From Xylogone sp. PMI_703 (Eukaryota > Ascomycota > Leotiomycetes): DNA of 64,000 nt. The translations under genes were made by a program, and so were the position numbers. Location: the NCBI GenBank assembly GCA_021399445.1, contig JAJTUQ010000014.1, positions 62,001-126,000 on the forward strand, given 5' to 3'. Positions within the stretch are counted from its first letter, which is position 1. Each line of letters begins with the position of its first letter. The notes beneath the pieces are model-generated. The model did no database searches. It was not told the DNA's origin and saw only the letters and a list, made by a program, of their open reading frames with translations. Positions 553 through 62,963 of this stretch are shown piece by piece.

Positions 553-902
553 TGTTACGAACCTAAGTCTCCACCTAGGTCCTACAGCGGGTATAGGTAT
601 ATACTAGGTCATAAGGGGTTGGTGAGAGCTCGGGGATCAGTGTAATATAGTATATGATCATAACTACAATTGTATGGGTAACAATTTGTATTGTAAGTTA
701 AGCACGAGGCTCCTATCTACTGAGAACTACATAAGTTTATATAGACTATGAATTATGCTGGATCATCTGGATCCTCTGGATCCTCGCAATGATCCCAATG
801 ATCCCAATGATCCAATCACGTGACCTCGGATTACTGTCGGGTTCTCTGTGTAGCTTCGCTACCGAGCCTCAGGCCCAACATCATCCTTGTAGGTTCGTGA
901 CA
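553..902 (-). repeat. Solo LTR, family B (TSD GTTAG)
   Basis: A 350-bp LTR with terminal inverted repeats TGTTACGAACC and GGTTCGTGACA, flanked by a perfect 5-bp duplication GTTAG (548-552 and 903-907). Orientation is minus, judged from the shared core promoter motif, which reads GAGCCTCGTGCTTAACTT on that strand. It holds two head-to-head arrays of 9-bp GATC units (about 759-813) and a CACGTG E-box. It has retained far more G and C than its surroundings, so it is younger than the relic it sits in. A solo LTR with matching TSDs implies LTR-LTR recombination after insertion. Confidence 0.9.
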
Positions 903-1777
903 GTTAGAAAAAAAGGAAAAAATTATTATAATGAAAATCTTACAACTATAAAAACAAAAACAAATGTTGAAAAAGTATAAAGATGAGTTAGTCTGACGAG
1001 GACTAAAGTTCTTAGACAAATTTAATATAATAAAAAAGAAAGAAAAAATAGAACAAAAGAAAAGAAAGTATTATGATTAATAAAAAAAAGCTCAAACAAA
1101 GATAAGTTCTTTTAATACTTTCTTCTCTGAGATTAATTTATTTATTTATATTAATATTCTGTTTAATAAAATCTAGTTAACTTTATCTGTTTATATTTCT
1201 CCAGAAACTTATTAGAATTAGTAAAATATTCTTTTAGTTCTTATATATTTAACTATTTATACTTTTCTTATTTCTTTTATTTAATTAAATAATATTTTTT
1301 TATTAACTTATTATTTAAGATTTCTTTAATTTTTTATTTTTTATTTAAATTTTACTTTAATTTTAAATCTAAAATTAATAATAATCCTAGTAATACTTTT
1401 TCTAATATAATTATATAAAATATAAAATATATTTATATAATATTAAAAAGTTTTAGTTTATATATCAGATTTCTCAGTTTCTTTTTGATTTTGTATAAGT
1501 TAATCTTTTTCTAGTTTAATTTATCGTTTAATCTTATTGTTTTAATAAATTTACGAATAATATAAACTTTATCTCTTTTTTTAAGTTCAGGTTTTATATT
1601 ATGTTTTTTATTATAGTATTTTTATTATATATTTTTGCATAAACTTAATATTATATTTTAAATAATTATAAATTTTTTTTAACTTGTCTATTTATTGTTT
1701 AACTATTTTAAAAATGTTTTTTATTTCTGTTTTTATAAAATAAGTTTAGACTTTATAATTATAATTTATAAAAAAAG

Positions 1778-7700: not shown

Positions 7701-10200
7701 AAACATAAGTAATACATTACTATTCGAATTAAATATAAACTTTATGAGCTTTTAATTATACCTTTTAGTCTAACAAATAATTCAGCAACTATACAAAAAG
7801 TAAATAATACAATTTTAAGACTATATTTAGATCACTTTATAATAGTATACTTAAATGATATCCTAATTTATTCTAAGACATTAGAAAAACACAAATAGTA
7901 TATTTGTACTATACTTAAAACATTAATTAATAACGACATAAAATGTAAATTAGTTAAATATTAGTTTAATATAACAGAAGTGAAATTCCTAAGTAAAATA
8001 GTTTCAGACAAAAGATTCCGAATAAACTCAAAAAAGATAAAAGTCATTAAAGAATGATTTACTCTAAAGATGATCAAAAAAGTCTAATAGTTTAACGGAC
8101 TTATCAATTATTATAAATGTTATATAACAGTTTACTCAAAGATAGCTAACCCATTGACAGAATTAACGAAAAAAAATATACTTTTTATTTGAGAAAAAGG
8201 ACAAGAAAAAACTTTCCAAGAAGTTAAAGATCAGTTTAATGAAGACAAAATACTGACTTATGCCAATCCCAGAAAACTATACTTACTGAAAACAGATATC
8301 TCAGGTAAAATATTGAATAAAATCTTGTCATAAAGAGATGACAAAGAACATTAAAGACTAATAACTTTTTACTCTCGAAAGTTTATTCTAGTTAAGTTAA
8401 ACTATAATATCTACGAAAAAGAACTTTTGACTATCATAGAATACTATAAGTACTAAAAGGTTTATTTATATAATACTAAATATTTATTCAAGATTTTATT
8501 AAACTACAAAAATTTAATAACTTTTATGACTACTAAAAATCTTAACAATAAACAAATACATTAATACAAAACATTAGTATAATATAATTTCAAGATTTGT
8601 TATATCCAAAGATCAAAAAATGTTAAAGCTGATACTTTAAGCAAATAACCAAATTACATAAAAAAAGTTCTAAACAAGAATTCACTATATTTAAAAAAGA
8701 AAACAATACCTTGTACTTTAACCATATATAAATATTAACAATTATACAGATTATTGACGAAGAATAATTAAAAAGGATTAAGTTAATCATTATAAAAAAG
8801 AAAGAAATCTCTAAAAATCCCAAGACTAGTTAACTCAAGGATCAAGAATTTCCGGGCATTTAGCTAAAAGACAAAAAAGTATTCATTCTATTAATAATTA
8901 CCCAGAAATTTGTAAAAGAACAACACAAATTACTTATATATAGTCACCAAGAAATCACTAAGACCAAAAACAAATTATAACGAAAATTCTTTATCTTTAA
9001 ACTCTAACAAGAAATCACTAAAGTTATCAATAATTACAATATTTGTCACAAAACTAAAATATCAAGAAAAAAGTCTATAAAACAATTAATACTTCTTCAG
9101 ATATTAGAAAAACCTTAGACTTCTATTTTATAAGATTTTATCACAAAATTATCCTCATCAAGAAATATTAACAGACTAGATAAAGATTACTATAACTTAA
9201 TTCTTATCATAATAAATAAATTTACAAAATATTTTATCATATTATTATAGAAAAAAACATAAATAACCAAAGATTTAACAGAAATCATGATTTCTAGAGT
9301 TATAACAAACTATAATATTCTGACAAAAATTATTTTGAACAAAAATAAACTTTTTACATCAAAATTCTGAGAAATAATCTACAAAAGATTAAGTATTAAA
9401 AGAAAAATCATTACGAAAAATAAGCTCAAACAGATAAACAACCGAACAAGTCAATCAGATTATAAAAATTTATCTTCATTATTACATAAATTATAAATAA
9501 TCAAATTAAAAAAATCTTTTACTAATAACATAATTAGTATATAATAATACAAAAAGTAAAATTACTAAAGTTATACTTTTCTTTACGAATTATAACTATA
9601 AAGCCTAAACCTACTTTATAAAAACAAAAATAAAAAACATTTCTAAGATAGTTGAACAATGAGTAAATGAACTGGAAAAAATCTACAATCATTTAAAGTA
9701 TAACATCAAATTTATATAAGAATATATTAAAAAATACTATAATCAAAAGTATAATATAAAACTTAAGTATAAAGAAAAAAATAAAGTTTATATTATCTAC
9801 AGATTTATCAAAATAACAAAACCGAGCAATAAATTAGACTAAAAAAAGATTAGATTATACAAAATCAAAAAAAAACTAAAAAATCTAATATATAAACTAA
9901 AACTCCTTAATATTATACAAATATACTTAATATTTTATGTAACTATACTAGAAAAAACATCACTAAGATTATTACTAACTCTAAACTTAAAACTAAAATA
10001 AGATTCAAACATAAAATGAAAAATAAAAAAAATCTTAAATAATAAATTAATAAGAAATAAGAAATAATACTTAATCAGATAAAAAAAATAAAAAGAATAT
10101 AAATAGTTAAATATCTAAAAACTAAAAAAACATCTTACTAATTCTAATAAACTCCTGGAAAAGTACAAACAGACAAAACAAGCCAGTATAAATCAAACAG
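4710..10200 (+). pseudogene. Broken gag-pol of the 4093-11,428 chromovirus
   Basis: This is a dead Ty3/Gypsy polyprotein. A CCHC zinc knuckle of Gag is at 5623-5664 and reads C-x2-Y-x4-Y-x4-Y, with later Cys and His positions replaced by Tyr as RIP predicts. A protease segment lies near 6890-6950. The RT box reads YLNDILIYS at 7848-7874 (YLDD expected). RNase H follows (about 8270-8550) and then integrase (about 8830-9560). The chromodomain-like tail is at about 9990-10,170, recognisable by the YLIR...K...LN pattern that matches YLVKWKG...W in chromoviruses. Most stops are TAA or TAG at positions where sister copies keep CAA or CAG. No frame is long enough to be functional. Confidence 0.8.
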
Positions 10201-10720
10201 AACATTAGTATAAACAACGAAATCAACGTCAAAATCTCGGAAAAGCTAACCTTGGCCTAATGAATAATTTCTGTTTACTATAACGCCTCGTCTTCTTTTA
10301 CTTTTGTTCACTTTTCTCTTTTTCTTCTTTAACATCTAACTTATCCAAAAAATAAAGATTACAACAAACCATTTTAGCTTTATACTCGTCGAATAAACAT
10401 TATTACTTTCATAAACAAAGAATCTTCATCATAACGTTTTCTTCTTCCTCTTTCAATTTCTTATATTATTTATCAATAACTTCTTAACCCTTAATTAAAG
10501 TAATCTTTATATTATAATTAGTATACTTTTTTTGAACATACTTTATATAACAAAATAACTTATTAAAGTCAACTAAACACTTATGACCCTCAGTTTTACA
10601 AAAAGAACAAAAAATCATTTCATCGTTAATATTATCAAGATAACAAACTAAACAAATATATTTGTAATCCTTCCTTGACTTTTCGGTATCTATAAATTTA
10701 AGTTAACACTTTAAGGACAT
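10150..10720 (-). pseudogene. Antisense reading frame with paired CxxC motifs (aORF copy 1)
   Basis: The frame runs on the strand opposite to gag-pol. It begins with an ATG at 10,720, 90 bp inside the 3' LTR, as in the other family A copies. A RIP-type stop (TAA) occurs at codon 6. The next readable part contains CLVC, then CSFC, then KTEGHKC. This gives C-x2-C-x11-C-x2-C-x6-C, a shorter loop than in the other copies and without the third Cys. Near the end it reads CCNLYFLDKLDVKEEKEK, which matches the tail of the copies at 42.4 kb and 61.2 kb. The function is unknown. The conserved tail and position argue for a real, formerly coding gene of the transposon. Confidence 0.5.
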
Positions 10721-18982: not shown

Positions 18983-19004
18983 GGAGGAGTCCCCTTTCGG
19001 CGTT

Positions 19005-22496: not shown

Positions 22497-22573
22497 TTGC
22501 GGTTATAAACTGCAAAAATTTGTAAGTTAACTGTTGTGTTATATCATAAGCACAATCAAGTATTTTTGAATAA

Positions 22574-22832: not shown

Positions 22833-22950
22833 TGGCTACTAAGTATATAACAATATAGGTGGTTGTGGTTGAATATTTGGTATTGCATATTGAAGTGGCG
22901 GGGGAAGTGACCCGACCGACTTGGAATTACGTTAACCGAGTAAATATTAA

Positions 22951-23583: not shown

Positions 23584-23594
23584 TAACTAACTTA

Positions 23595-24135
23595 GGGTAT
23601 ACTTAAATCCACTTGGGCGCGTTTTTATCAACTTGACACAGACCACTACATGAACACTACAGCTGACATCGGCACCACGACGCGTTCGATTTGGCATAAG
23701 TTTAATTGATTTTTTGGTATAACTCTAAATATTAAGGACGGGCTTCAGGCGTACCGCACAGTATGAGCTGCACTGTACGGTATAGGCTGCACTGTATGGC
23801 TAACACCCTACAGGCTCAGGCCCTACAAGGCTTCGCTTACAGGGCCTCAGACCTGTAAGCAAGCTGAAAAGAGCCAACGGCCGTAGGGCGTTGGCGATAC
23901 GGTACAGCCTATAACTACTGTACGGTGTACCTTATACAGTACAGTATAATATATACTATAAAATTTTTACACTTTATAGTATTATTCGTGTGTATACATT
24001 AGTATGCCTAAAACGTGCTTGTGTTTTGGTTATTCATAGTTATAGCAAAATATGCTCCAGTGTCGGTCGTACGCGTGTAAAGTGGTCTGTGTCAAGTTGA
24101 TATAAGAACGCGCCCAAGTGGATTTAAGTATACCA
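23595..24135. mobile_element. MITE with about 50-bp TIRs and 8-bp duplication (hAT-like)
   Basis: A non-coding element of 541 bp. The left end begins GGTATACTTAAATCCACTTG from its second base, and the right end is its reverse complement. Similarity of the ends continues for about 50 bp to AACTTGACACAGACCACT. Both sides carry the 8-bp duplication CTAACTTA (23,587-23,594 and 24,136-24,143). Eight-bp duplications are the hallmark of hAT elements. The middle contains further palindromic CACTGTAYGG and CCCTACAGG-type segments. Confidence 0.85.
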
Positions 24136-24310
24136 CTAACTTAATGGCCAATGTAATATTATTATACATAAAAATCAACAAAGTTATTATGCTATACAAT
24201 GTACATGTACTTCAGCCCAACCACTGCGACATTAATCCTTGACAGGCTCACATGGTCGGGATTTATGTAAATTCTGCTAGCTACCCCGCATACTTCGCAT
24301 ACTCCGTACA

Positions 24311-24324
24311 CCCCGAACGCGGGG
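24311..24324. promoter_or_regulatory. Inverted CCCCG/CGGGG site before the second regulator
   Basis: CCCCG, spacer AACG, CGGGG lies 81 bp upstream of the ATG of the regulator. Zn2Cys6 dimers commonly bind inverted CGG triplets, so autoregulation or control by the other factor is possible. Unproven. Confidence 0.3.
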
Positions 24325-24404
24325 TAACATCCGAGGTCCTCACATCTTATTAAATTGTTACGACTCTAACCATCTTGTCGTCGCGAGCTTCAATCTTGGA
24401 TATT

Positions 24405-26752: not shown

Positions 26753-27466
26753 ACCTATCATTAAATCCTCTTGTACTTATACATAGCCCAGGGAGTCATA
26801 CCATTAAATGGGAAACTGCAAAAAGAGCGTCAGCTGTGCTACGGTCAAAAGCTATAACAACAGAATAATATAACGCGAAGTAATAGATGTGTATAGCAAA
26901 CTGTAAAATCGGATACTATTCGTTATGTGGCACTTGGTGTTTTCCTCTAATCGTCGGCTCTCTTCGCTTAATCAGCCTTCATTTCTAGTCGTCGCCTCCT
27001 AGTCGGTGGACGTGAGTGTGACAGCAAAGTGAGTGTGACACTTTATCTTTTTGTACGCGTTTCGCATAGTAAAAAATAATTAATTTCATCGCACTACCAC
27101 AACAACATTAACCCTTAAACTATCACAATAGCATACCCAATGTTTACCTTAATTTAACACCGTATTTTAGAAGCCGGAGAATGGCTTTCCGAAAACCCTA
27201 ACGAGAGCTTTTCCGTTGACAAGTAAGATATTCAGCCGGTTAACTTTGGCTATGGCCAAAAAGCGGGGTACTCTATTCAGTACCAAGCATAAACAGCATA
27301 GTGGCCAGAATTGAATATTGATAATTGCCCAAGGGTAAGCTGTTCATGCTTATATTAAGTTGTTACTCGAAAATAGCTAATTGCTTACCAAAGATATCAT
27401 ATTCAGTGTTATCTGCCATGTATGTAATGAAGCTAATTAACCTTCTTTAACTATAAGTTAGTTTTG
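26753..27466. other. 3' flank of the island, no gene
   Basis: No coding region seen. It contains a short direct repeat GTGAGTGTGACA (twice near 27,011-27,042). Normal composition continues to the exact insertion point of the retrotransposon block at 27,472, where the GAAGT duplication begins at 27,467. Confidence 0.5.
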
Positions 27467-27471: not shown

Positions 27472-28042
27472 TGTAATGTTCCTACTAGGGTCTGGGGTAT
27501 CTATCACACAAATGATAGATGAAGGTAAAGGGCAAGAGAATAACTTCACAGTGTAAAGGCTTGTTACTATGAAATGCAGGTATCCTGTAAATCAATTGAG
27601 TTAAGCACGAGGCTCCTATTTATGGCTTAACTACATTCTTTATATAATAGTTAAAAGAGATAGTGACAGTCCTGGATTAGTCCGATCTTTACTGATCGTG
27701 GGATTAGTACGATCAGCGCTGATCTTACTGATCATCTTAGCTAATCCAGGTGCTTGCTTAATTACTAATATTAGCCTTTCGCACGTACAAGTAAATAGTT
27801 AGCACAAGCAGAAAGGTAATATTAATTTTCTGATAATACTATTCTATAATTTGTATAATTTTTCTTATAATACTAATGTCGAACTTATACTATCCTTTTA
27901 TTAATATTAATAATGTAATAATATTAACAATATTATAACTAGGTCTTTAATAGCTATCTTAATTTATACTTATTTAACCAAAGTGTTAACTACAGAGACT
28001 ATAGAACCTAGTCATTTGTTATAACCCTGCAAGGTCATAACA
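27472..28042 (-). repeat. 3' LTR of the outer 27,472-49,213 element
   Basis: A 571-bp LTR in minus orientation, ending on the right at CATAACA before the purine tract (CTATCCTCTTCTTAG). Its U3 holds the inverted CCTGGATTAG (27,671-27,680) and CTAATCCAGG (27,741-27,750) around several GATC units. Confidence 0.88.
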
Positions 28043-28133: not shown

Positions 28134-28684
28134 ATATCTTCAAAGTATTCAGTTACTAAAGAGTATATTGATTTAAAAAAGTAAAAGATTTTGGTAATCA
28201 AAAATTATAATAAATTATATTCTTAAATTAAATTTACAAGAATTTTAATATTATTTCTGTATTCTTTTTGTAAAAAGAAAAAACTAAATTATATTATAAC
28301 AAAAAGTTCTTATCATTATACAGAATGTATAAAAGCCCAGGATTATACGAAATATAATATTCTTCCTTTAAGTTCCGAGGAATAAGATAAGATAACCTGT
28401 AAAAAAGCCTAGCTAAAAACTAATCATAAAAAAGCTTTAGTTAAATTTCTTTGGCTTAATATATAATAATAACAATTCTGGTCTTATGTTAATGAAATAT
28501 TCCAGAAAAAGTTTAGTATTTTAGACAAATTAAATATTGAAAAAAAGAAAGAAAAAATCAAACAAGAACAAAAAGAAAAAGAAGTTCTAAGATAAGTAAC
28601 ACTTATTTAGTAAACAAAAGTTAATCTTCTTAAAGTTTTCTTTTTTGACGTTAATTTACTTACTTATATTAATATTCTTTTTAA
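28134..28684 (+). pseudogene. Antisense frame of the outer element (aORF copy 2)
   Basis: Runs opposite to pol and starts at an ATA (ATG in sister copies) 91 bp from the 3' LTR. The middle reads Y-S-F-C-K-K-K-K-L-N-Y, then eight residues, then Y-T-E-C and, eight residues later, Y. If Tyr stands for RIP-mutated Cys, the spacing is C-x2-C-x6-C-x8-C-x2-C-x8-C, the same as in the copy at 42.4 kb. The lysine-rich tail is cut by the insertion of the 28,690 element. Confidence 0.5.
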
Positions 28685-28689
28685 CAAAG

Positions 28690-29274
28690 TATAACGTTCC
28701 TACTAGGATATGGGGTTGTCTATCACTCAAATGATAGACAAAGGTAAAGGGCAAGAGAATAACTTCACAAGGCTTAGGATAGTTATTATGAAATGCAAGT
28801 ATATTATAAATCAATTAAGTTAAGTACGAGGCTTTTATCTACTGTGAAATTATCTACTTATATAATGAAGATTAGTATATTAAGTATATTAGTTATACTT
28901 TATACTCAATATACTGGATATACATCTTATGTAATTACTTATTTATTAATATTAATTGTTTATATATATAAACAAATAATTAACATAAACGGAAAAGTAG
29001 TATTAATTTCCTGATAATATTATTACTTAGTTAATATAACCAAAAGGTTAATACTACAACTTCAATAATATTATCCTTTAACTTGTATAACCTTTTTTAT
29101 AATATTAATGTTGAACTTATACTATTTTTTCGTTAATACTAATAATGTAATAATACTAATAATACTATAACCAGGTCCTTGATAATTGTCTTAATCTATA
29201 TTTATTTAACTAAAGTGATAACTATGAAAGTCTTATAATCTAGTCATTTATTATAACCTTGCAAGATTATAATA
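28690..29274 (-). repeat. 3' LTR of the 28,690-35,996 element
   Basis: 585 bp, minus orientation, begins TATAACGTTCC (TGTAACG in unmutated copies). Its U3 holds the TTAGTATATTAAGTATA type of variable block. Confidence 0.88.
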
Positions 29275-29364: not shown

Positions 29365-29960
29365 ATATTACTTAAATATAAGTCTAATTACGAAGAATAC
29401 ATAAAGAAAAGGAAAATGATAAAGAATTCTGGTTATTTTATAGTTTTTAAGTGTTATTACTGTCTTGTCAACAATAAAAAGTGTTATTATAGTCCTTAGT
29501 CCATTAAATATAATAAATATATTTATCAAAATAGAAAGTACGAACTTGATCCGAACATAGATAAGTTAAAATGTTTGGTCGAAGAGGAGGAATGTCTTAA
29601 ACAAAAAAAAAGAAAGCTTTGGCTTACATAACCTGTTTTCGCAAATTGTAAAAGTTAATCAAGACAAAAGATCATAATATAATTATTTAAAGCGTTTTTA
29701 CGATAAAAGAACTAAAGAAGATCGAAGAACAAGAAAGGAAAGAAATAAAAGAGAAAGAGAAACTCGAACAGGAATAAAAGGAAAATAAGACATTATAACA
29801 AGTGAAAACTACTTAGTCAGTAAAGGCAGGGCTCTCTGGGGCCTTCCTCTCTAAGGCTAAACTACTTATTTATACTAATATTCTTTTCGATGAAACCTGG
29901 TTAACTTCATTTGTTCATACTCCTCCAGAAACTTATTAGAATTAGTAAAATATTCTTCTG
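29365..29960 (+). pseudogene. Antisense zinc-cluster-like frame (aORF copy 3)
   Basis: On the strand opposite to pol, starting at an ATA (ATG in the copy at 62,963) 91 bp from the 3' LTR. It reads KCYYCLVNNKKCYYSP, then a stop (TAG, from CAG), then SIKYNKYIYQNRKYELDPNI. With Tyr for lost Cys the spacing is C-x2-C-x6-C-x8-C-x2-C-x6-C. A long charged coiled-coil-like tail follows (for example KEDREQERKEIKEKEKLEQE) and then a segment, YTNILFDETWLTS, shared with the other copies. Gal4-type zinc clusters have this spacing, but the basic loop is only partly present. Function unknown. Confidence 0.55.
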
Positions 29961-32900: not shown

Positions 32901-35400
32901 AACATTTAAATATTAATTTTTTTATTTTCTAATTAATATTTAGGTTATGGAATTCTAACCAAGGTTATCTTAGGATAATATTTTCTTTTCCAAGAGAAAA
33001 AACCTCAAACTAAATTTGTTCTTGGTAATTTCTAATCCTTATAATAAACAGTTTAATTCTGGCGAATACTCTTTCTTTTATCAATAAGTTATTAGCTATT
33101 CGTAAGAGTTGATTATAGACTTCAGTCTATATATCTATCGTTTTAACAACTTGTAACAAGATTAAGTTAATCTAGCTTCTCGAATTTACTAAAGTTCTAA
33201 AGTTTCCGTTACTAAACTTAATATCTAACCAGATGATATTTCCTTCGTTAGCCATAAACATATCAAAAGTGAATTCTGTATTAAATTCTTCTTCTTGAGT
33301 TATCTAAGGTAATACCTTCTTTGCTCTAAGCTTTCTCAGATTAAACAGGTTATCGATATACTTCTTAAAAAACATCCATTCATCATTAAACTCATAATAA
33401 TAATTTATCCTATAATTATAATATTATTCTTGATATTCTATATAAAAAATTATTTTTCAACATATTTCCTTCTTGGCCTAGTACATCTTCTCTTGGTCTT
33501 TATAGTATATAACCTAGGCATAAAAGTCTTGTTAAAGTAGCCATATGTTTTCTCCCAGAGAGTAAAGTACCAGGTCATCATGATATAATTTATTAATAAT
33601 GATTTTTTCGAAGTTAGATTATACAACTTTAATTATTATTCTTAATTTCTATATTTTATATTAAAAAAGCCTATCTTGCTAAAGTAACATATCCTAGAAA
33701 ATATTTCTTTTGACTAATCTCCAGGTTTTTATACAACTTCTATCAGAGTAAAGAATTATTTTAATTAATATTATTCTTTTACTTACTTATAACTCATTTG
33801 TTTAGTAAAATTAAGCAATAAAATCTTCTTGTTTTATGTAGTTAAAAAGTTCAGAATCTCAGAAAATTTTCTGAAAAGATTCCTTTATTATTTTTTGATT
33901 AAATTCTAATACTTTAAGTATTGTATATAAAGAATACACTGGTGAAATCCTAGCATATCCTTTTCTTTTCGGTAAATCTTATAATATAACACTAAACATT
34001 AGTTCATTAATGTCTGTTTTAATTAGGGTTTCCTTGACTTGTACTTGATAAAATGTATTTTTCAAGTCTAATGTACTAAAGAATTTAGGCCTGGTTTCTT
34101 TATGAGTCATTAACACTCTTTTTATAGTCCTTGGGGAAAGGGGATCTAGTAAGTTGATTATATCTTAGTATTCTTCAGAGAGGAAATTGTCAAAGTGAAT
34201 AACTTTCAAGTTCTGTTGCTTTACTTCTTCTGTAATTGATATTAAGACATTTAACTTATTTATAGTTAAAGAAAAGACTCCTAAAGATATTATATTTCTG
34301 GTATTATAATAAACTTTTGTTGTAAGGTTTTCTGTAAGAAAAATTCATAAGATTTAGTCTATAGACTAATTTTTAATATTCTTTGGTAACTTGTCAGAGT
34401 TATTCTTTCTTACTAATAGGATATTCTCTGAATTATAAGATTTATTATCTTTGGTCAAAGATATCATAAACACAGTCTTAGCTTCTTTTGGCTTTCCTTT
34501 GTCCTTGTTATTGTATTCCTGGGCAGTATGTCCAGCTTATCTATATTTATAGCAAAATTTCCTTTCTCTCCTTTCTTTATATTGCTCAGAAGATAAGTTA
34601 TATTTATTTTTTCCTTTAAGTAATTCTTTATTATAGTTCTTGGGACTTTGTCTTTTTCTTCCTATAATCTTATTAAAGTTCATCAGGTCTTTTTGATCAT
34701 CAACGTAACTTTTTCGTTTATTTGTCTATAAGAAGTAAAGAATTCTTTTTTTCTTTTCTATATATTATTTATATTAAAAATTATCAATTTCCTTAGCCTT
34801 CTTCATTTGTTTTAGTAAAGTGTCCAAGCAAAGTTTAATTCGAGCCAATTTGTCCTTAATTATTTCTTTAAGTCCTTTGTAATACTAAAACATAAAAACT
34901 CCATTCTCTTAGTTAATTAAATTATTTAATTGCCTGAATCTGGTATTATATATTATTATAAATCCAGTTTACTTAAAAATATATAATTATTGTTTTACCT
35001 TATCTATTTCATGAAAGTTACTAAAAACTCTTTTTAATTCTTTTTCAAAATTGTCAATAAATTTGAAAATATTGATAATATCCTGTTATTTATCCTCATG
35101 TCCTAGTGAATATTTTTCTGTATTCTTAGTATATAGAAAGATTTATTATAATACTTCATTATCAAAGTAAAAGATTATCTAAATAATCTTTTCGAAATTA
35201 CTCTTGAATATTTACTTATGTAAAGATAAGTAAAAGTGAACCTGAAACAGAAATATCTTTAGCTTAATCCTCTTGTTATAATACTTTTTGATCTTTCTTA
35301 ACTTAAGTTTCTTTTCTATGAAGTTAAGTTACTAGTTCTGGTCTACTCCAGGAACTAGAAATACTAATGATTCTCTAGCCATAATACTTTTGAGTTTCTA
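29961..35400 (-). pseudogene. Broken gag-pol of the 28,690-35,996 chromovirus
   Basis: Minus-strand polyprotein with many RIP-type stops. The Gag zinc knuckle lies near 34,520-34,565 and still shows C...GH-x4 with Tyr at other Cys positions. RT, RNase H, integrase and chromodomain follow toward lower coordinates in the normal Ty3/Gypsy order, and match the copy at 41.7-49 kb along their length. Confidence 0.8.
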
Positions 35401-41736: not shown

Positions 41737-42342
41737 TGTAACGTTCCTACAAGGGTATGGGGTTATCTATCACTCAAATGATAGATGAAGGTAAAGGGCA
41801 AGAGAATATCTTCATAAGGCTTTAGGGTAGTTACTATGAAATGCAGGTATACTGTAAATCAATTGAATTGAGCACAAAGCTCCTATTTACTGTAAGTTCT
41901 ATCTACTTATATAAAAAATGAATTTCCTCCGAGTCCCATTAATCCCATCGATCCTCCTGAGATCCATGGGATCCATGGGATCCGCTTATCTAATCCAAGT
42001 ACTCATTTAATCGTTAATATTAGCTTTTTGCACGTATAAGCAAATCATTAGTACAAGTAGAAAAATAATACTATTTCTCCGATAGTATTACTATTTAACT
42101 AGTACAACTAAAGGATTAGTACTATAATTCCGATAATACTATCCTTTAACTTATACAACCTTTTTTATAATATTAATGTTGAATTTGTACTATTCTTTCG
42201 CTAATATTAATAATATAATAATATTAGCGATACCATAACCAGGACCCTGATAACCATCTTATCTTATACTTATTTAACTAAAACAATGATTATAAAAGTT
42301 TTGTACTTAAGTCACTTGTCACAACTTTACGAAATTATAACA
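41737..42342 (-). repeat. 3' LTR of the 41,737-49,040 element
   Basis: 606 bp, minus orientation. The U3 variable block is of the CCCATTAATCCCATCGATCC type with repeated GGATCCATG, unlike the blocks in the copies at 4.1 kb, 28.7 kb and 63 kb. Confidence 0.88.
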
Positions 42343-42432: not shown

Positions 42433-43060
42433 ATGCCCCTTAAACGTAGTCTTGAACAGAGTTATAGTGAAACAGTGCAAAAGAGAAAGAAAGAAGCCCA
42501 TCCCGAGCTGATTTCAAAAGTCCAAACTTCCAGTATTAAAATGTTTTCTTGCAATTATTATGAAAAGAAGAAACTAACATGTTTCATAACTCTGGATTCT
42601 TTACAATACAAGGAATATATTAAAGCTAAGAATAACACAAAGTATAATATTCATGATTTTTTTTCAGTAAACTAGGAAGCTTTAGTGGCTGAAGAACAGA
42701 AACTTTCTCAAGAGTAAGAAGAGACCCAGAAAAAAACTTTAAAAACACAAGCAAAACTACTAAAGTTAAACCGTCAGAAAGAATAGTTTCACTTTCGAGC
42801 TGTAGAGATATTACATTATAGTTTAAAGAATATAGATAAGTTAGATACTGTTGAAGAAAAAAGAGGCTCAAGAAAGAGAAGGAAAAGGAAATGTTACAAC
42901 AATCAGAAACTACTCAGCTGGCGGAGACTAGGCCTTTCGAGGCCTTCCCCTCCGACGCTGATTTCTTTACTTATACCGATATTCCGTTCAATCTGTCCTA
43001 GCTTACTTCGCCTGTTCGTACTCCTCCAGGAGCTTATTAAAGTTGATAAAGTATTCTTCT
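42433..43060 (+). pseudogene. Antisense zinc-cluster-like frame, best-preserved start (aORF copy 4)
   Basis: An ATG at 42,433, 91 bp from the 3' LTR, opens 80 codons opposite to pol. The start is basic (MPLKRSLEQSYSETVQKRKK). The cluster follows: C-N-Y-Y-E-K-K-K-L-T-C, eight residues, Y-K-E-Y, eight residues, Y. This gives C-x2-C-x6-C-x8-C-x2-C-x8-C when the TAY codons are taken as former TGY. The frame closes at a TAG at 42,673 but continues in frame past three RIP-type stops (TAG/TAA for CAG/CAA). There it has a coiled-coil-like part (EEQKLSQE...) and the tail SLKNIDKLDTVEEK, also seen in copies of both families. After a frameshift a last shared segment reads DADFFTYTDIPFNLS. No function is known. 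Confidence 0.6.
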
Positions 43061-46000
43061 AGTTCCCAGGTATCTAACTATCTATATTCTTCTCATTCCT
43101 TTTATCTGACCAAGTATTATTTCTTGTTTTTTATTAATTTGTTATCTAAGATTTCTTTGATTTCCTATTCCATATTTAGGTCTTATTCTAGCTCTAAATC
43201 TAAAACTGGCAATGATCCCGGGAATACTTTCTCTAGTATAGTTACATGAAATACTAAGTATATTTATATAATATTAAGAAATTTTAGTTTATATATCAGA
43301 TTTCTTAGTTTCTTTTTGATTTTATATAATTTAATCTTTTTTTAGTCTAATTTATTGTTTAGTCTTGTTATTTTGATAAATCTACAGATAATATAAACTT
43401 TATCCCTTTCTTTAAGCTCAAGTTTTATATTATACTTTTAATCATAATATTTCTTTATGTATTCTTGTGTAAATTTGATGTTATACTTTAAGTAATTATA
43501 AATTTTTTCTAATTTGTCTACTCACTGTTTAGTTATCTTAAAAATATTTCTTATTTCCACTTTTATGAAATGAATTTAGGTTTTGTAACCATAATTCATA
43601 AAGAAAAATATAACTTTAGTAATTTTACTCTTTACATTATTATATGCTAATTACACTATTGATAAAAAATCTTTTCAATTTGATTATTTATAATCCATGT
43701 AATAACAAAGATAGGCTCTTATGATCTGGTTTACTCATTTGATTTGACTGTCTGTCTAAGCCCATCTTTTTGTAGTAATTTTTCTTTTGATGCCTAATCT
43801 TTTGCAAATTATTTCCCAGAATTTCAATATAAAGAACTTATCTTTGTCCAAAATAATTTCTGCTGAAATATTATAGTCCACTATAACCCTGGAAATCATA
43901 ATTTCCGCTAAATCCTCGGCTGTCTATGTTTCTTTCTATGGTAATATAATGAAATACTTCGTAAATCTATTGACTATAATGAAGATTGAGTTATAATAAT
44001 CTTCATCTGGTCTGTTAGTACTTCTTGACAGGGGTAATCTTGTGATGAAATCCTACGAAATAAAAATCCAAAGCTTTTCTAGTATCTGAAAAAACATTAA
44101 TTATCTTACAGGCTTTTTCCTTGATGTTCTAGCTTTATAACAAATATTACAGTTATTGATGACCTTAATGACTTCTTACTGAAGTTTAAAAATAAAGAAT
44201 TCCCATTATAACCTATTCTTGGTTTTTGTGATTCCTTGATGACTATGTGTAAATAATTCATATTGTTCCTTTACAAACTCCTGGGTAATTGCTGGTGAGA
44301 TGAATATTTTCTTATCTTTTAGCTAAATGCCTGGGAATTCCTGATCTTCGAGCTAACTAGCCTCGAAATCCTTAAAAATTTCTTTTTCTTCTATAATAAC
44401 TAACTTAATCTTTTCTAACTATTCTTTGTCAATAACTTGTATAATTATTAATACTTATATATAATTAAAGTATAAAATGTTGCTTTCCTTTTTAAACATA
44501 ATGAATTCTTGCTTAAAACTTCCTTCTATATAGTCTAGTCGCTTGCTCAGAGCATCAGCCTTAACATTCTCTAATCCTTGGATATAATAAATCCTGAAAT
44601 CATATTATATTAATGTTTTGTACTAATGTACTTATTTATTGTTAAAATCTTTAGTAATCCTGAAAATTATTAAATTCTTGTAATCCAATAAAATCTTAAA
44701 TGAATATTTAATATTATATAAGTAAACTTTCCAATATTTACAACAATTTATGATGGACAAGAATTCCTTTTTGTAGATGTCATAGTTTAACTTTGCTGAA
44801 ATAAACTTTCGAGAGTAGAAGGCTACTGGCCTCCAATATCCTTTGTTATCCTTTTGTGACAAGACTCTATTTAATACCTTACTTGAGGTATCTGTTTCTA
44901 GTAAGTATAATTTCTCGGGATTAGTATAAGTCAGTATTCAGTCTTTGTCGAACTGATCTTTAACCTCTTGGAAAGCTCTCTCCTGCCTCTCTTCCTAAAC
45001 AAAGGATATATCTTTTTTCGTTAATTCTGTCAATGGGCCAGCTATCTTTGAGTAAGTCATTATATAATGTCTATAATAATTAACAAGTCTGTTAAACTAT
45101 TGGACTTCCTTGACTATCTTTGGAATAAACTATTCTCTGATAACTTTTACTTTTTCTGGGTCTATTCGGAATCTTTTGTCCAAAACTATTTTATCTAAAA
45201 ATTTCACTTCTATCGTATTGAACTAATACTTAACTAATTTACATTTCATGTCATTATTAATTAATACCTTAAGTATAATACAAATATACTATTTATGTTT
45301 TTTTAATATCTTAGAATAAATTAAGATATTATCCAAATACATTATTACAAAATAATCCAAATATAGTCTCAAGATCATATTATTCACTTTCTACATAATC
45401 ATTAGTATATTTGTCAGACTAAAAGGTATGACCAAAAGTTCATAAAGTCTATATTTGATTCGAATAACAATATACTACTTATGTCCCTCCTTAATCCTTA
45501 TCAAGTTAAACCTTATAACGAAGTTTAATTTCGTAAAATATCTAACTTCAATAAACATATCTTATATATTATTAATACAAAGTAATAAATATTTATTTTT
45601 TATAATTTTACTATTTAAATTTCTATAATCTCCACATAGTCTTCCCCGAGGGTCATCTGGCTTTGGTGCCCATATCAATAATGCTTTTCATAAAGAACTC
45701 AATTCTCTGTAAAAGTTCTTTATGGTCTATTCATCCAGTCACTCCTTCAGGATCTTATCCCTGGCAGGATTTGTTCCATAAATAAGTCTATATAAAGGGG
45801 TTATACTTTCCTGGAGAATGATTTCATAGTCCTATTCTTTGTATAAAAGTAAAACTGTATCCTTTGGTCATAGAGTAAATAACTTACGACAATCTTAGTA
45901 TTTTTCCGGGAGAATGTCCAGTTTATTCTAAAAGTCATCTTGAGTAAGTTCAATAATAAAAACATTTTGTACAAATCATTCCTTTGGTCCAATACTATAA

Positions 46001-48407
46001 TAATATTTAAATATTAATTTCTTTATTTTCCAGTTAATATTTAAATTATAGAATTTTAACTAAAGTTATTTTAAGATAATATTTTCCCTTTTAAAGAAAG
46101 AAACCTTAAACCGGATTTATTTTTTATAATTTCTAATCTTCATAATAAAAAGTTTAGTTCTAGTAAACATTCCTTCCTTTGTTAATAAGCTGTTAACCAT
46201 TTGTAAAGGTTAATTATAGACTTCAGTCTGTGTGTTTATTGTCTTAGTAACTTATAGCAAGATTAAGTTAATCTGGCTTCCCGAATTTACTAAGGCTTTA
46301 AGGTTTCTGTTGCCAAACTTAATATTTAACCAGATAACTTCTCTTTCGTTAGCCATAAATATATCAAAAGCAAATTCTATATTAAATTCCTCTTTTCGAG
46401 TCATCTGAAGTAATACCTTCTTTGCTTTAGGCTTTCTCAGGTTAAACAGGTTATTAATATACTTCTTAAAGAATATTTATTCGTCGTTAAACTCATAATA
46501 ATAGCTTATCTTATAACTATAATATTACTTTTGATACTTTATATAGAAAATTATTTCTTGATGTACTTCCTTTTTGGCCTAGTACATCTTCTCTTGGTCT
46601 TCATAATACATAACTTAAGCATAAAAGTCTTGTCGGAATAACTATATATTTTCTCCCAGGGAATAAAGTACTGGGTCATTATAGTACAGTTTACTGATAA
46701 TGATTTTTTCGAAGTTAAATTATATAACTTTAATTACTGTTCTTAATTTCCATATTCTGTACTAAAGAAGCTTATCTTGCTGAAGTAATATATCTTAAAG
46801 AATATTTCTTTTAATTAATCTTTAGGTTTCTACATAACTTTTGTCAAAGTAAAAAGTTATTCCAACCAATATCATTCTTTTACTTACTTATAACTCATTT
46901 ATTTAATAAGGTTAGACAATAAAATCCTCTTGTTCTATATAATTAAAAAACTCAAAACCCCAGAAAACTTTCTGAAAGAATTCCTCTGTCATTCTTTGGT
47001 TAAGTTCTAATACCTTGAATATTGTATATAAGGAATACACTAATAAAATTCTAACATGTCCTTTTCCTTTCAAGGATTCCCAGTCAATTTGATTAAAACT
47101 ACCCTGAAACTCTTCTCAAATCATCAATTCTTCCCTAACTTGTCCTAAGAAGAATAAGTCCAACAAGTCAGTAATATCTCAATATTCTTTTAGAGAGAAA
47201 TTGTCAAAGTTAGCAATTTCCAAGCCTTATTATTCTACTTTCTCCATAACAGACATTAATATATCTAACTCACTGACAGTAAGAGAAAAGACTCTTGAAG
47301 ATATCATACTTTTAACATTATAATAAACTTCTGTCATAAAATCTTTTATAAAAAATTTTCGTAAAATCTAGTTTACAGACTAATCCTTAACATCTTTTGG
47401 TAATTCGTCAGAGTTGTTTTATCCTACCAATAAGGCGTCACCTGAATCATAAGATTCATGATCTTTAGCCAAGGACACCATAAACACAGTTTTGACTTCC
47501 TTTAGCTTTCCTCTGTCCTTATTACCATATTCCCAGGCAATATATCTGGCTTGTCCATACTTGTAGCAGAGCTTCTTTTCTCTCCTTTCTTTGTATTGTT
47601 CAAAAGTCAAATTATACTTATTTTTTCCTTTGAGTAATCCTTTGTTATAGTTCTTAAGACTTTGTCTTCTTCTTCCCATAATCTTATCGAAGTTTATTAA
47701 GTCCCCTTAATCATCAATATAATCTTTTTGTTTATTTGTTTATAAAGAGTAAGGAATTCTTCCTTTCCTTTCTATATATTATTCATATTGAAAATTGTTA
47801 ATCTCCTCAGCCTCCTTTATTTACTTGACTAATGTATTTAAGCAAGGTTTGATACAAGCTAATTCGTCCTTAACGGATTTCTTTAACCCTTGGCGATACT
47901 AAAACATCAATACTTTATCCTCTCAGCTAGTCATATTATTCAGTTGTCAGAATTTGGTATTATAAGCAAAAACAAAGTTAATCTGTTTCAAGGCATATAA
48001 TTGCTATTCCGCCTTATCTGTTTTATAAGAATCCTCGAAAACTCTTTCCATTTCCTCTTTAAAACTCTTGAAGAATACAAATAAGTTGATAATATCCTAC
48101 TATCTTTCTTCATCTTTTTCGGTAAAATTCTCGAAGTTCTCTACATATGGCAAAGCTTATTATAACACTTTTCCTTCCAAGTAAGTAAATAACCATATAA
48201 TTTATTAAAAGTCATTTTGAAACTTGTCTTTATACAGATTCAAATATAAACAAGTTCGAAACTTAAAAAGTTTTAACTTAAACTTATCTTTTCTAAAACT
48301 TTCGATCTTTCTTAAGTCTAGCTTTCTTTTAATGAAGTTGGTCGTCAAGTTAAGGCTAGCCTCAGGGGCTTGAGGGTTCTATTGTGAAGACAAGTCTCCG
48401 GCCATGG
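43061..48407 (-). pseudogene. Broken gag-pol of the 41,737-49,040 chromovirus
   Basis: The minus-strand Gag starts at an ATG at 48,405 (MAGDLSSQ, then a TAG at a former CAG). The Gag zinc knuckle is open within 47,419-47,679 and reads CYKYGQARYIAWEY, a CCHC box with one Cys, the His and the last Cys turned to Tyr. RT lies around 45,250-45,480. RNase H is open at 44,632-44,862 and includes the characteristic WRPVAFYSRKF...LNYDIY. Integrase follows, then a chromodomain-like end near 43,030-43,200 (EILDNKL...QYLVR). The integrase end overlaps the antisense frame. Confidence 0.82.
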
Positions 48408-48410
48408 TAC

Positions 48411-48434
48411 CTTCGAGTTTCAAGGTGCTCAAAG
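48411..48434 (-). other. Hairpin next to the 5' LTR, where a primer-binding site is expected
   Basis: Reading on the minus strand, CTTTGAG directly after the LTR can pair with CTCGAAG 10 bases later. The same arrangement follows the LTR at 50,056. No TGG-type tRNA primer site is visible. Confidence 0.4.
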
Positions 48435-49040
48435 TGTAATATTCTTACAAAGGTATGGGGTTATTTATTACTCAAATAATAAATAAAGATAAAAGGCAAG
48501 AGAATATCTTCACAAAACTTTAGGATAATTACTATAAAATGTAAGTATACTATAAATCAATTGAATTAAGTACAAAGTTCTTATTTATTATAAGTTCTAT
48601 TTACTTATATAAAGAATAAATTTCCTCCGAGTCCCATTAATCCCATCGATCCTCCTGGGATCCATGGGATCCATAAGATCTGCTTATCTAATCCAGGTGC
48701 TCGCTTAATCATTAGTACTAACTTTTTGCACGTATAAACAAATCACTAATACAAGCAAAAAAGTAATATTATTTCTTTAATAGTACTACCACTTAACTAG
48801 TACAACCAAAGGGTTAATACTATAATTCTAATAATATTATCCTTTAGCTTGTATAACCCTTTTTATAATACTAGTGTTGAACTTGTACTATCTTTTTGCT
48901 AGTACTAGTAATGTGATAATACTAGTGATACTATAACCAGGACCCTGATAGCCATCTTATCTTATACTTATTTAACTAAGGCAATGGCTATAGAGGCCCT
49001 GTACTTAAGTCGCTTGTCACAACCCTGTGGGGTCGTGACA
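48435..49040 (-). repeat. 5' LTR of the 41,737-49,040 element
   Basis: 606 bp, minus orientation, with intact right end GGTCGTGACA. Same U3 block as its partner. Confidence 0.88.
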
Positions 49041-58200: not shown

Positions 58201-60720
58201 AGTCAAGATCATAGAAAAAGATAAATAAAAGATAGTATTCAGAACATATTATAAACTGTTCGAATACCTAGTTTTGTCAATAAGATTTACCAACTCACTT
58301 ATAATATTCCAAAGAATAATGAACTATATACTTATACTATACTTGGATATGTTCATCATAGTCTATATTAATAACTTATTGATTTACTCCAGAATATTGG
58401 AAAAATATAGAGAAAACGTAAAAAAGATTTTATAAATTTTAATAAATAATGACATATAATACCAGTTATACAAATATATATTCCATTAAACAGAAGTAAA
58501 ATTCTTAGAATATATAATATCAGAAGAAAGATTCCGAATAAATCCACAGAAAATAACTAACATAAGAAAATAACCTGATCCAAAGAACGTCAGAGATATT
58601 CAAATATTCAAGAGAATATATAACTTTTATCAAAAATATGTCCACAAATTCTTGGATATTATTATACCATTAGACAACTTAACCAAGAAAGATCAGGAAT
58701 TCAAATTCAAAAGTAAAGAATAAAAAGTATAACAAAGGCTTAAAAACTAGTTCAATAAAGGAATAATCTTAACAATATTCCAAGCAAGACTACTAATTAA
58801 AGTCAAAGCAGACATATCGAATAAAGCATTAAAAACAGCCTTAAGCTAACTGTACTTTAATAAAAGATAAAGACTGATAACCTTTCACTCAAGGAAGTTT
58901 TTCCTTACAGAAAGGAATTATAACATTTATGATAAGGAATTATTAGCTATAGTAAACATATTCAAAACCTAGAGAGTATATCTCTTAAGATCAAAAGTAA
59001 AAGTACTTACAGATCATTATAACTTAAGATATTTCATTAATACCAAAATATTAAACGTTAAACAAACTAAATAATCAGAAGAACTCACATAATATAACTT
59101 CAAAATAAGGTATATTAAAAGAACTAAGAACATTAAAATAAATATACTCAACAAAAAACCAGATTACATAAAAAAGGTTAAACCAAAAACTAAAACTATC
59201 TTTAAAGAAGAAAAAAATAAAACATTAATATATAATTATTTAGCCCAAGGGACTGAAGAATAAGAATTCGACATAGAATAAACGAAGAAGATAGTCCAGG
59301 TCATTAAGCATAAAATCAAGGAGGCCAAGGTATTATTTCAGGAATTAAGTCTAGACAACAAATAGGAAAAATCCATCGAGGAACTAGGAATATGGTTTTG
59401 CAACGAGAGAATTTATATACCATAATCTTTAGCTAAAAAGTTTGTCAAGTATATATATGACTCATTATTATATAAACATCAAAGAATTGCAAAAATACAC
59501 AAATTTCTCAGTCTAAAGTTTTATATACTTAAGTTATAGAAAATAATATAAGAAGTTGTCAAAGTATATAATATATACTATAGAACAAAACTAACATAAA
59601 AAATCATGTACAGATTATTATAACTATTAGAAATACCAGAAAAACTATAAAAATCAATAACAATGGACTTCATAATAAACTTATCATTATCACTAAATGT
59701 AAATAACAAGATCTACAACAAAATATTAATAATCATGAATAGATTAACTAAGTATAAGATTTTCATACTATGGAAAGGTATTTATACAATAGAACAGTTA
59801 GCAAATGTGTTTATGAACAGAGTATTTATAATATTTAGATTTCCAAAGAAAATCATCTTTAACAGAAACAAGTTATTTATATTAAAGTTTTGGTAAATAC
59901 TTATTATTATAATAAAGATTAAAACTAAAATAGTTACCAAAAGATAAACACAGACTAACAAAAGTACTAAAAGACTAATCCAGATACTTAAGCAATACTT
60001 TAGGACATATATTAACTACCTACAGAATAATTAAATTAAACTGTTACCAATAGTATAATATATATATAACAGAACAAAGTATAATAATACATAAATATCA
60101 TCTTATTATATAAATTTCGGAAAAGAAATAAATATAATATACTTATAGAAAAAGACACTTAATATAATAATAATAATAAAAGAAAGAGTTAAGCTTATCA
60201 AGGAAATACAGGCAGTTATACAACAAAACCTAAAAGAAGTCAAAGAAAGAATGAAAAAATACTATAATAAATAATATAAAATAAAACTTATATTTAAAAA
60301 AAAAAATAAAGTATATCTTTTACGAAAATTCATCAAAACTAAAAGACTAAGTGAATCACTGGATTTTAAGAAAATAAAACCACTAAAAATTGATAAAGTT
60401 TTAGGACAAATAACATATAAACTAAAATTACCCAAAAATACTAAAATATATTTAGTTTTTCATGTTGTTATATTAGAACAAATATTACCAGAAACGTTAA
60501 TAATCATATATCTAAAAGTAAAAAATCTTAACCCAGAAAAGGAATATAAAATAAAAAGTGTAAAAAGACAAAAGATCTTCAGGAAGAAAGTTTAATATCT
60601 GATCAAATAGAAAGAATACCCAAAGTCAGAAAATACTTAAGAACTAGCAGAAAAACTCAAGAACACTTAACAGAAAGTTTAGGAGTTTAAAGCCAAATAC
60701 ATTAAATTAAATCGTCTAGC
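55299..60720 (+). pseudogene. Broken gag-pol of the family B chromovirus
   Basis: The Gag ATG at 55,299 opens 88 codons (MTSQQAGFMSKIKYITLDPV at the start). The knuckle region is at about 56,180-56,240, reading Y-F-K-Y...M-I-H-E-Y, a C-x2-C-x4-H-x4-C box with Cys and His turned to Tyr. The protease motif at 57,435-57,443 is D-N-N instead of D-S-G. The RT box at 58,364-58,390 reads YINNLLIYS. RNase H lies near 58,870-59,050. The integrase core is open at 59,663-59,896 (MDFIINLSLSLN...), and a chromodomain-like end lies at about 60,540-60,690 (YLIK-stop-KEYPKSENT). Many stops elsewhere, so it is not functional. Confidence 0.82.
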
Positions 60721-60779
60721 ATTAAGTCACCAGAATAAATTTAGTCAAAAACCCCAAGAAAATTGTCAATCTGGAAATT

Positions 60780-61160
60780 CGAGAAAACAGAGTTACCCAG
60801 AGAAGTTATAACTATATGATCAAAACTTTCTTACTTAACATATTCTTTTTCTTCAGTAATATCCAGCTTATCTAAAGTCTTCAAACTACAACAAATCATC
60901 TCTTTAATATATTTCTGTAAAAACTTTTTTTATTTCCTTAAACAAATTAGGCAAATAATATTGTTAGCCATAACCTGAGCAGCCTTCTCCTCCTCGGCCT
61001 CGAAGCAAGCTTCTTCCTGATCTAAGGTTTCCCAAGAAATTATAAAGATACTTTCATTATTGTATATTTAATAGTATAAAACATACTCATTATAACGATT
61101 CAACTCAGGAATCATCTTATAAACCTTGTCATTACAGACATAAAAAACACAGGAAGACAT
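60780..61160 (-). pseudogene. Antisense zinc-cluster-like frame in family B (aORF copy 6)
   Basis: An ATG at 61,160 on the strand opposite to pol, 203 bp from the 3' LTR. The first 30 codons contain C4, Y7, Y14, Y23 and Y26, with Y33 beyond a stop. If Tyr replaces Cys, the spacing is C-x2-C-x6-C-x8-C-x2-C-x6-C, the same as in family A. After a stop come an acidic Ala/Glu-rich stretch (ACFEAEEEKAAQVMA) and the tail CCSLKTLDKLDITEEKE, close to the family A tail. The agreement between two different families is strong evidence that this was a real gene. Confidence 0.55.
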
Positions 61161-61774: not shown

Positions 61775-62440
61775 TAACTAGTATATAATAACATAAAAAG
61801 TAAAACTACTAAAGTTATGTCTTTCTTTGCGAATTATGGCTACAAAGCTTAAACCTACTTCATAAAAGTAAAGATAAGAAACATTTCCAAGACAGTTAAA
61901 CAATAAGTAAACAAATTGGAAAAAATCCACAATTACTTAAAGTATAACATCAAATTTATATAAGAATATATAAAAAAGTATTATAATCAAAAACATAATA
62001 TAAAACTTAAACTTAAAAAAAAGGATAAAGTTTATATTATCTGTAAATTTATCAAAATGATAAAATCAAACAATAAATTAAATTAGAAAAAGATTAAACT
62101 ATATAAAATCAAAAAGAAATTAAGAAATCTGACATATAAACTAAAACTCCCTAACATTATATGAATATATCCAGTATTTTATATAACTATACTAAAGAAA
62201 ACACCCCCAAGATTACTATTAACTCCGGATTTAAAACTAAAGTAAGACTTAAATATAGAATAAAAAGTCAAGGAAATCTTAAATAATAAGTTAATAAAGA
62301 ATAAGAAAAAATACTTAATCAGATAAAAAGAATGAAAAGAATATAAATAATTAAATACTTAAGAACTAAAAAAACATTTTACTAATTTTAATGAACTTCT
62401 GGAAGAGTATGAATAAATGAAGTCAACCAGACTTTATCAA
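61775..62440 (+). pseudogene. 3' end of pol of the 49,471-63,638 element
   Basis: The integrase C-terminus continues after the family B insertion. A chromodomain-like segment lies at about 62,250-62,410 (KEILNNKLIKNKKKYLIR, then LNT...EL). RIP-type stops interrupt it. Confidence 0.75.
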
Positions 62441-62963
62441 AAGGAACATCAGCATAAACAAACAACTTAGCCTTAGAGGAGAAAACCCCAGAAAGCCCTG
62501 TTTTTGCCAGCTAGGTAATTTTTACTTATTATAATACTTTGTTTTCTTTTTATTCTTGTTTAAGTCTCTCCTTTTCCTCTGTTTCTTTCTTTTCTCGTTC
62601 TTTGATCTCTTTTAGTTCTTTTATCGTAAAAATACCTTAAATAATCATATTATAACTTTTTATCTTGATTAACTTTTACAGTTTATAAAGACAAATTATA
62701 TAGGCCAAGACTTTCTTCTCCTTTTGTTTAAGATGTTCTTTCTCTTTGACCAAATGCTTTAACTTATTTATATTCGGATTAAACTTATACTTTTTACCCC
62801 GACAAATACATTTACTATACTTAATGGACTGAAAACTGTAATAACACTCTTTATTATTGACAAAGTAATAATAATACTTGAAAATCATAAAATAACCAGA
62901 ATTCTTTATCATTTTCCCTTTTTTCATATATCCTTCGTAATTAGACTTATACTTAAGTAACAT
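62440..62963 (-). pseudogene. Antisense zinc-cluster-like frame (aORF copy 5)
   Basis: An ATG at 62,963, 91 bp from the 3' LTR, opens 95 codons opposite to pol (MLLKYKSNYEGYMKKGKMIK). The cluster reads Y-Y-Y-Y-F-V-N-N-K-E-C, eight residues, Y-S-K-C, six residues, Y. That is C-x2-C-x6-C-x8-C-x2-C-x6-C with four of six Cys turned to Tyr by TGY to TAY. A coiled-coil-like stretch (KLKHLVKEKEHLKQKEKKVL) follows. Beyond the stop the frame goes on with KELKEIKEREKKETEEKERL and a segment YADVPFDKVWLTS shared with the copies at 29.4 and 42.4 kb. It is the longest open antisense copy in the window. Confidence 0.6.

Follow-up and report, generated by a model that had tools for sequence, protein, structure and literature searches.

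The 64,000-nucleotide stretch analysed here (the window; positions 62,001 to 126,000 of contig JAJTUQ010000014.1 from the 50.1-Mb, 25-contig genome of Xylogone sp. PMI_703) carries, from position 42,433, an additional gene of a Ty3/Gypsy chromovirus that lies next to the 3' long terminal repeat (LTR) and runs from this side in the direction opposite to gag-pol. On balance we favour the reading that this gene, which is predicted to encode a Gal4-type zinc-cluster protein, controls its own element through short repeats next to the TATA box of the LTR. From sequence comparison, this reading draws on an open frame, conserved cysteines, constraint, a predicted fold, the TATA-proximal repeats and the pairing of these repeats with the class of the gene.

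An antisense gene with homologues in other fungi

About 90 bp separate the start of the frame at 42,433 from its element's 3' LTR, and the translation of the frame aligns with residues 1-149 and 163-209 of P0001, a naturally open antisense protein from the same genome (tblastn E 2.7e-53). In the intact relative L028 the adjoining pol frame matches the integrase and Chromo Pfam models, and frame and pol run in opposite directions at every examined locus where the two adjoin. When the genome was searched at the protein level with the intact relative as query, at least 124 matches were obtained, 115 of them with stops. At least one match without stops, C20:6401292 (L064), is probably a chance match within a host gene; four others (L031-L034), on four contigs, share an identical (100%) open frame of 209 amino acids (aa) within differing flanks, with a G+C content of 44-45% at three of the loci. 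These four copies, differently flanked and lacking the changes made by repeat-induced point mutation (RIP), indicate recent activity in a RIP-rich genome. Outside this genome, a single-sequence search identified 30 related proteins at E<=0.01 and a profile search 73 relatives among 7,993 scored candidates; the named hosts are Lachnellula arida, Hymenoscyphus albidus, Rutstroemia sp. and Botrytis cinerea, and the B. cinerea proteins P0027 and P0055 are members of this family. The first-pass annotation of the window had proposed a selected antisense protein, and in unmutated relatives the antisense frame is indeed open.

Gal4-type spacing had been read in five copies of the window (28,134; 29,365; 42,433; 62,963 minus; 61,160 minus), with tyrosine codons taken as RIP-mutated cysteine codons. 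Scanning the whole 64 kb in six frames for [CY]x2[CY]x6[CY]x8[CY]x2[CY]x6-8[CY] yielded five matches (28,260+, 29,452+, 42,550+, 62,876- and 61,151-), all within these copies, and none in 20 block-wise dinucleotide shuffles of the window. The copy at 10,720 minus, described as differently spaced, gave no match to the pattern; it is of the related class H, of which a better copy (L068) reads CSFCKTEGRKCLVNFNRSSRCIECVRKKCTGC. The tail SLK..DKLD..EEK, noted as common to the copies, proved to be the family's RGLKSLDELDAVEE signature. Using P0001 and the 30 proteins from other fungi as tblastn queries, we partly recovered all six named copies (near 28.3, 29.8, 42.4, 60.9, 62.8 and 10.6 kb), those near 29.8 and 62.8 kb by P0001 alone. 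The broader claim of an antisense frame in every full-length chromovirus holds for the named copies, to which checking was confined. The many tyrosine codons that RIP yields, together with the stops in most genome matches, could suggest that the frame is a RIP artefact or arose by chance, an idea to which we give practically no credence: it is refuted by the open, unmutated copies with real cysteines, by the homologues in other fungi and by the lack of matches in shuffled sequence.

P0001 has cysteine spacings of 2, 6, 8, 2 and 8, which fit the consensus CX2CX6CX5-12CX2CX6-8C. A six-cysteine motif of this general kind is present in 52 of 77 proteins (query and relatives), 44 of which have six residues between the second and third cysteines and 42 of which strictly fit the spacing; of the 25 proteins in which it is missing, 17 are shorter than 140 aa and lack the N-terminal part, and eight are longer, several with tyrosine in place of cysteine. 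All six cysteines are invariant in the 52-row set, itself selected by the motif, and five of them occupy columns conserved in at least 90% of 31 unselected sequences. The expected match to the Pfam family Zn_clus (PF00172) was obtained in part: it is the family matched by most members (23/31 at E<=1; 15/52 at E<=0.01; best match of any member E 2.1e-4), but P0001 scores 11.8 bits, or 17.6 bits for the domain alone, against a Pfam cut-off of 21. Two members are named Zn(2)-C6 fungal-type in UniRef, and among PDB sequences PUT3 and GAL4 rank near the top (E 0.036-0.21), separated by an unrelated coiled coil. Because of the cysteine spacing, the Zn_clus matches, the PUT3 and GAL4 matches and a predicted fold that may be of this type, we read the domain as Zn2Cys6, in agreement with the Gal4-type cluster first suggested. 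The predicted protein begins with a basic N-terminus, followed by the Gal4-type Zn2Cys6 domain and then by a long helix, which probably forms a coiled coil for dimerisation; it ends in a short tail, rich in acidic and aromatic residues and with one nearly invariant tryptophan, that overlaps the end of pol.

The antisense frame is under protein-level constraint

RIP causes transitions only, and to avoid these we scored transversions relative to the intact copy; loci partly cover the same genome places, and counts were made by column or by column-and-base event. Across 87 distinct alignments, in the open reading frame (ORF) outside the pol overlap, columns with transversions at codon positions 1/2/3 numbered 34/15/50 (of 167/166/166), compared to 11/14/15 in the 400 bp upstream and 8/2/26 in pol, the positive control. 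When each column and base was counted once over the 57 contributing loci, the antisense frame showed 75 nonsynonymous and 56 synonymous events, an omega (dN/dS) of 0.24, and 0 of 500 permutations matched the synonymous count, albeit under assumptions of equal sites and independent events that descent violates. The other two frames gave omega values of 1.01 and 2.93; within the antisense frame omega was 0.22 for the zinc part, 0.21 for the coil and 0.58, not significant, for the pol overlap. A dN/dS near 1 would have spoken against the selected protein of the first-pass annotation; the transversion omega is far lower, and we conclude from these substitutions that the frame is a real gene under constraint, open in natural copies. 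Passages of PMC7264820 describe retroelement antisense transcripts that function as RNA, and selection might thus concern an antisense RNA (double-stranded RNA, silencing) with the protein incidental. This we consider very unlikely, because the constraint is frame-specific, with low omega in a single frame and third positions freest, and the cysteine columns rank with the best conserved in other fungi.

The gene is a variable block on a shared backbone

Antisense genes of this family fell into classes 1, D, E and H, class 1 being a post hoc merger of types A (15 places) and B (23), made because they have a common operator type and, in the better copies, the zinc-cluster residues EKKKLTC and APDSLR. 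Between L028 and L037 the zinc part differed least, with 11 transversions in 117 bp against 16 in 111 bp of the N-terminal part and 43 in 250 bp of the coil. Relative to the intact copy, pol of uninterrupted elements differs by 0-0.007 transversions per site and the antisense-only stretch by steps of 0.000, 0.143-0.157, 0.169, 0.222 and 0.239-0.285. For the LTR the figure is about 0.007-0.018 in most copies of class 1; it rises to 0.05-0.07 in classes D and E, where the differences lie chiefly in the TATA-proximal repeat block. In this comparison, several rows of high pol divergence represent interrupted copies or alignments that had shifted, and the window was entered more than once. The transitions between regions are abrupt: bins of 50 bp contain 0-2 transversions in pol, up to 22 in the antisense gene and 0-2 again in an array of 17-bp period in the LTR (the 28,134 copy ends within pol and lies outside the comparison there). 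Such steps between near-identical flanks imply that the history of the gene is older than, and separate from, that of both flanks, and exchange between elements is the simplest cause of the variable block. Proteins of other fungi reveal a comparable mosaic: among 53 full-length proteins (1,378 pairs), 16 pairs are at least 75% identical in the last 50 residues; in nine of these, several with common members, the N-terminal part is at most 48% identical (for example, tail versus N-terminal identity of 0.92 vs 0.40 for P0022/P0027 and 0.82 vs 0.28 for P0030/P0037).

Candidate operators pair with the antisense class

In the LTR, the interval from the 17-bp array to the TATA box contains short repeats whose type differs by class: GGATCCCAT in class 1, GATCAGT/ACTGATC in D, GTATA/TATAC in E and GGATCCAGGACC in H. 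Repeated 6-mer pairs exceeded dinucleotide shuffles in all four types (28 vs 7.7; 41 vs 6.9; 18 vs 6.8, P 0.019; 19 vs 3.7), and 6-bp palindromes were above shuffles in class 1 only. Operator class, called on a purine/pyrimidine code, equalled antisense class at 60 of the 62 anchored places in the computed table and at 61 upon inspection (38 class 1, nine D, six E and eight H), the 62 being those of 85 places that remained after 23 without an array anchor (other families and interrupted or truncated copies, including L064) had been dropped. Of the two discordant places, the anchor of L063 had fallen on a neighbouring LTR, and an E-type block is present where one would be expected; in L040 (about 380-900) the end of a class-1 LTR abuts a class-H antisense fragment, which looks like the insertion of one element into the antisense gene of another and is counted as the single miss. 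Thinly based assignments are those of the 28,134 copy (scores in Table 1) and of L026 and L041, where the block is shortened. In distant families, a tandem array upstream of the gene rose above 15 single-base shuffles at 14 of 17 places and reached a TATA-like box, as judged by eye, in at least eight (L062, L072, L073, L077, L078, L079, L095 and L098), with a unit that varies by family, GATC-like or GGACC/GGTCC.

Although it is the most regular feature of the LTR, the 17-bp array was rejected as the class-specific target: it is near-constant across strongly differing zinc clusters, and scans of the distant families did not recover it. In the LTR of the intact copy (607 bp; L028:2241-2847) there are 12 GTAC cores in 13 registers at exactly 17-bp spacing and eight TAGTACTA versus a shuffle mean of 0.1; genome-wide, 191 AGTACT pairs lie at 17-bp spacing and nine at 18 bp, and the reversed pattern occurs four times. 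The period recurs in five of the window copies (28,134, 29,365, 42,433, 62,963 and 10,720) as well as at L061, L065-L068 and L074-L076, and 17 bp is not the leading period in 61,160, L062, L069-L073 and L077-L080. Nearly transversion-free across antisense classes, the array is perhaps a binding array for another factor.

A model of self-control and its alternatives

In the mechanism that we favour, the 3' LTR would give rise to an antisense transcript, and a dimer of the antisense protein would bind the repeats directly upstream of the TATA box in the LTRs of its own element, setting sense transcription of that element and its close kin; discrete gene/operator pairs would then be the outcome of diversifying self-specific control. 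The covarying TATA-proximal repeats lend support to such self-regulation. More tentatively, as an idea plausible but short of probable, we propose a self-recognition module in which the Gal4-type antisense protein and its cognate TATA-proximal operator co-diversify into discrete specificities and move as exchangeable blocks on a common pol/LTR backbone, each class commanding its own promoter alone; the logic would recall that of phage immunity regions or of VANC anti-silencing. Zn2Cys6 proteins are mostly activators; because of this habit, the position of the site, similar to that of an upstream activating sequence, and the acidic/aromatic tail with its nearly invariant tryptophan, we regard an activator or anti-silencing role as distinctly likelier than a repressor role.

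The protein might instead act in the manner of a phage repressor, binding the same repeats to shut off the sense transcription of elements of its class and so control copy number. Discrete gene/operator classes on a common backbone resemble immunity modules, and HBZ of human T-cell leukemia virus type 1 (HTLV-1) opposes the sense promoter. HBZ, whose antisense promoter in the 3' LTR is described in an excerpt of PMC7264820, is a DNA-binding regulator encoded in antisense by a retroelement, as the protein described here would be, although HBZ is a basic leucine zipper (bZIP) rather than a Zn2Cys6 protein and belongs to a retrovirus, and no relationship is implied. C/EBP coiled coils matched our profile in PDB only at E>=1.1. 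Given the acidic/aromatic tail and the usual activator role of Zn2Cys6 proteins, we think repression or copy-number control rather unlikely.

Several observations weigh against self-control and for a protein that acts elsewhere (on host promoters, in integration targeting, or as an RNA or particle accessory), with the TATA-proximal repeats being minisatellites linked to the gene by descent only. LTRs commonly hold tandem repeats, GATC-like cores occur in several families despite different zinc clusters, and four classes represent few independent cases. Furthermore, the N-terminal gag/leader also differs among class lineages and forms a third variable block in the outer 600 bp (7-19 transversions per 100 bp between B and E copies; window 47800-48430 vs 34800-35330), in which two class-E copies are identical by transversions; the classes may therefore represent ancient haplotypes in linkage whose middle part has been homogenised. 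Action elsewhere nevertheless seems unlikely to us: about 300 bp between the two variable blocks contain 0-5 transversions per 50 bp, so simple linkage would require strong conservation or repeated exchange there, and distant families again have tandem arrays with family-specific units, at least eight of them extending to a TATA-like box.

Relation to known systems

The gene brtn of Boty-like retrotransposons in Botrytis cinerea was reportedly described by Zhao et al. (2011, Virology 417:248). Passages of PMC7264820, PMC8365987 and PMC4227169 present it as an extra antisense gene between pol and the 3' LTR of Boty, in Botrytis and also Sclerotinia, and an excerpt of PMC5987419 mentions a Monilinia transcript resembling Pol and BRTN. 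The placement is that met here, where the gene likewise lies in antisense between pol and the 3' LTR and the Ty3/Gypsy element has a chromodomain, but the passages of these four papers mention no domain, function, allele classes or operator repeats for brtn. Within this partial literature, from which the original brtn description was absent, we found no report of a zinc cluster or operator for a brtn-type gene. Plant antisense ORFs (Grande gene23, RIRE2, Retand and PvRetro13) likewise lie between pol and the 3' LTR, and the Grande product is nuclear; the relevant sections of PMC7264820 describe no clear protein similarity except an SMC domain in PvRetro13, and the word zinc is absent from this review.

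Among the systems encountered, the closest working analogue is VANC of the VANDAL transposons of Arabidopsis, for which binding and loss of methylation have been demonstrated (portions of PMC5735166 and PMC10398659). There, according to the same portions, an element's own protein targets short motifs in tandem repeats of the element's noncoding DNA, and proteins and repeats diversify rapidly among related elements; VANC proteins, however, contain DUF1985/DUF287 and belong to plant elements that are not LTR elements. Neither DUF1985/DUF287 nor bZIP was among the Pfam families listed for P0001 or among the 25 of 38 listed for 31 members. Compared to the fungal Zn2Cys6 factors GAL4, PUT3, HAP1, LAC9 and LEU3, the antisense protein has the same six-cysteine spacing, order of zinc domain and long helix, and acidic tail, and a predicted fold that may be the same, but it is encoded in antisense by a retroelement, is about 200 aa long and has a weak Pfam score, and its LTR shows no enrichment of CGG.

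As recounted in parts of PMC7264820, LTR retrotransposons have long been known to carry antisense ORFs to which no function was assigned; a Gal4-type domain with a covarying candidate operator offers a concrete, cheap test of function in one fungal family. If our reading is correct, a retroelement would run its own sequence-specific regulator in a RIP-rich genome, and elements could thereby regulate their own activity, evade silencing or, via scattered LTRs, place host genes in their neighbourhood under the same control.

Other features of the window

The features of the 42,433 element and of the other antisense copies, among them a weak remnant that the first-pass annotation had not included, are collected in Table 1.

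Table 1. Antisense genes, candidate operators and associated features, in window coordinates
Feature	Position	Strand	Basis or remark
Antisense zinc-cluster gene, class 1 (type B), RIP-mutated, internal stops	42433..43037	+	tblastn, motif scan, class comparison
Chromovirus pol, 3' part, same element as 42,433 gene	42913..44559	-	end overlaps antisense gene
3' LTR of 42,433 element	41739..42342	-	approximate bounds; ends taken from intact copies
5' LTR of 42,433 element	~48435-49040		approximate
17-bp phased array of TAGTACTA-like palindromes in LTR, 42,433 element	42006..42226	.	bounds derived from offsets
Candidate operator, class 1 repeat block (GGATCCCAT type), directly upstream of TATA box	41914..41998	-	bounds derived from offsets
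Antisense copy, class D	28134..28685	+	end approximate; tblastn, motif scan
Candidate operator of 28,134 copy, GATCAGT type	~27646-27749		narrow margin: class D 0.80 vs next 0.74
Antisense copy, class E	29365..29930	+	opposite-strand pol 31458-29824
Candidate operator of 29,365 copy, GTATA type	~28866-28930
17-bp array of 29,365 copy	~28943-29163
Antisense copy, class E	62391..62963	-	tblastn, motif scan
Candidate operator of 62,963 copy	~63398-63462
17-bp array of 62,963 copy	~63164-63384
Antisense copy, second, distant family	60750..61160	-	pol 59138-60799 plus
35-bp repeats of 61,160 copy, GGACC/GGTCC type	61460-61564		search for 17-bp array found none
Antisense copy, class H	10147..10720	-	tblastn
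Candidate operator of 10,720 copy, GGATCCAGGACC type	~11155-11258
17-bp array of 10,720 copy	~10925-11145
Additional antisense gene, weak remnant	898..1191	+	tblastn 943-1026 plus, E 0.006

Repeats of 9 bp and GATC type lie at 758-813, near the remnant antisense gene (window 758-1191). A G+C-richer island flanked by AT-rich blocks spans window positions 14000-27000 and, as read by eye, includes a broken gene similar to flavin adenine dinucleotide (FAD)-dependent monooxygenases (19120-20963) and a fungal transcription factor gene with a zinc-cluster-like start (24375-26752); relatives of the island frame at 25354-26343 carry PF04082.
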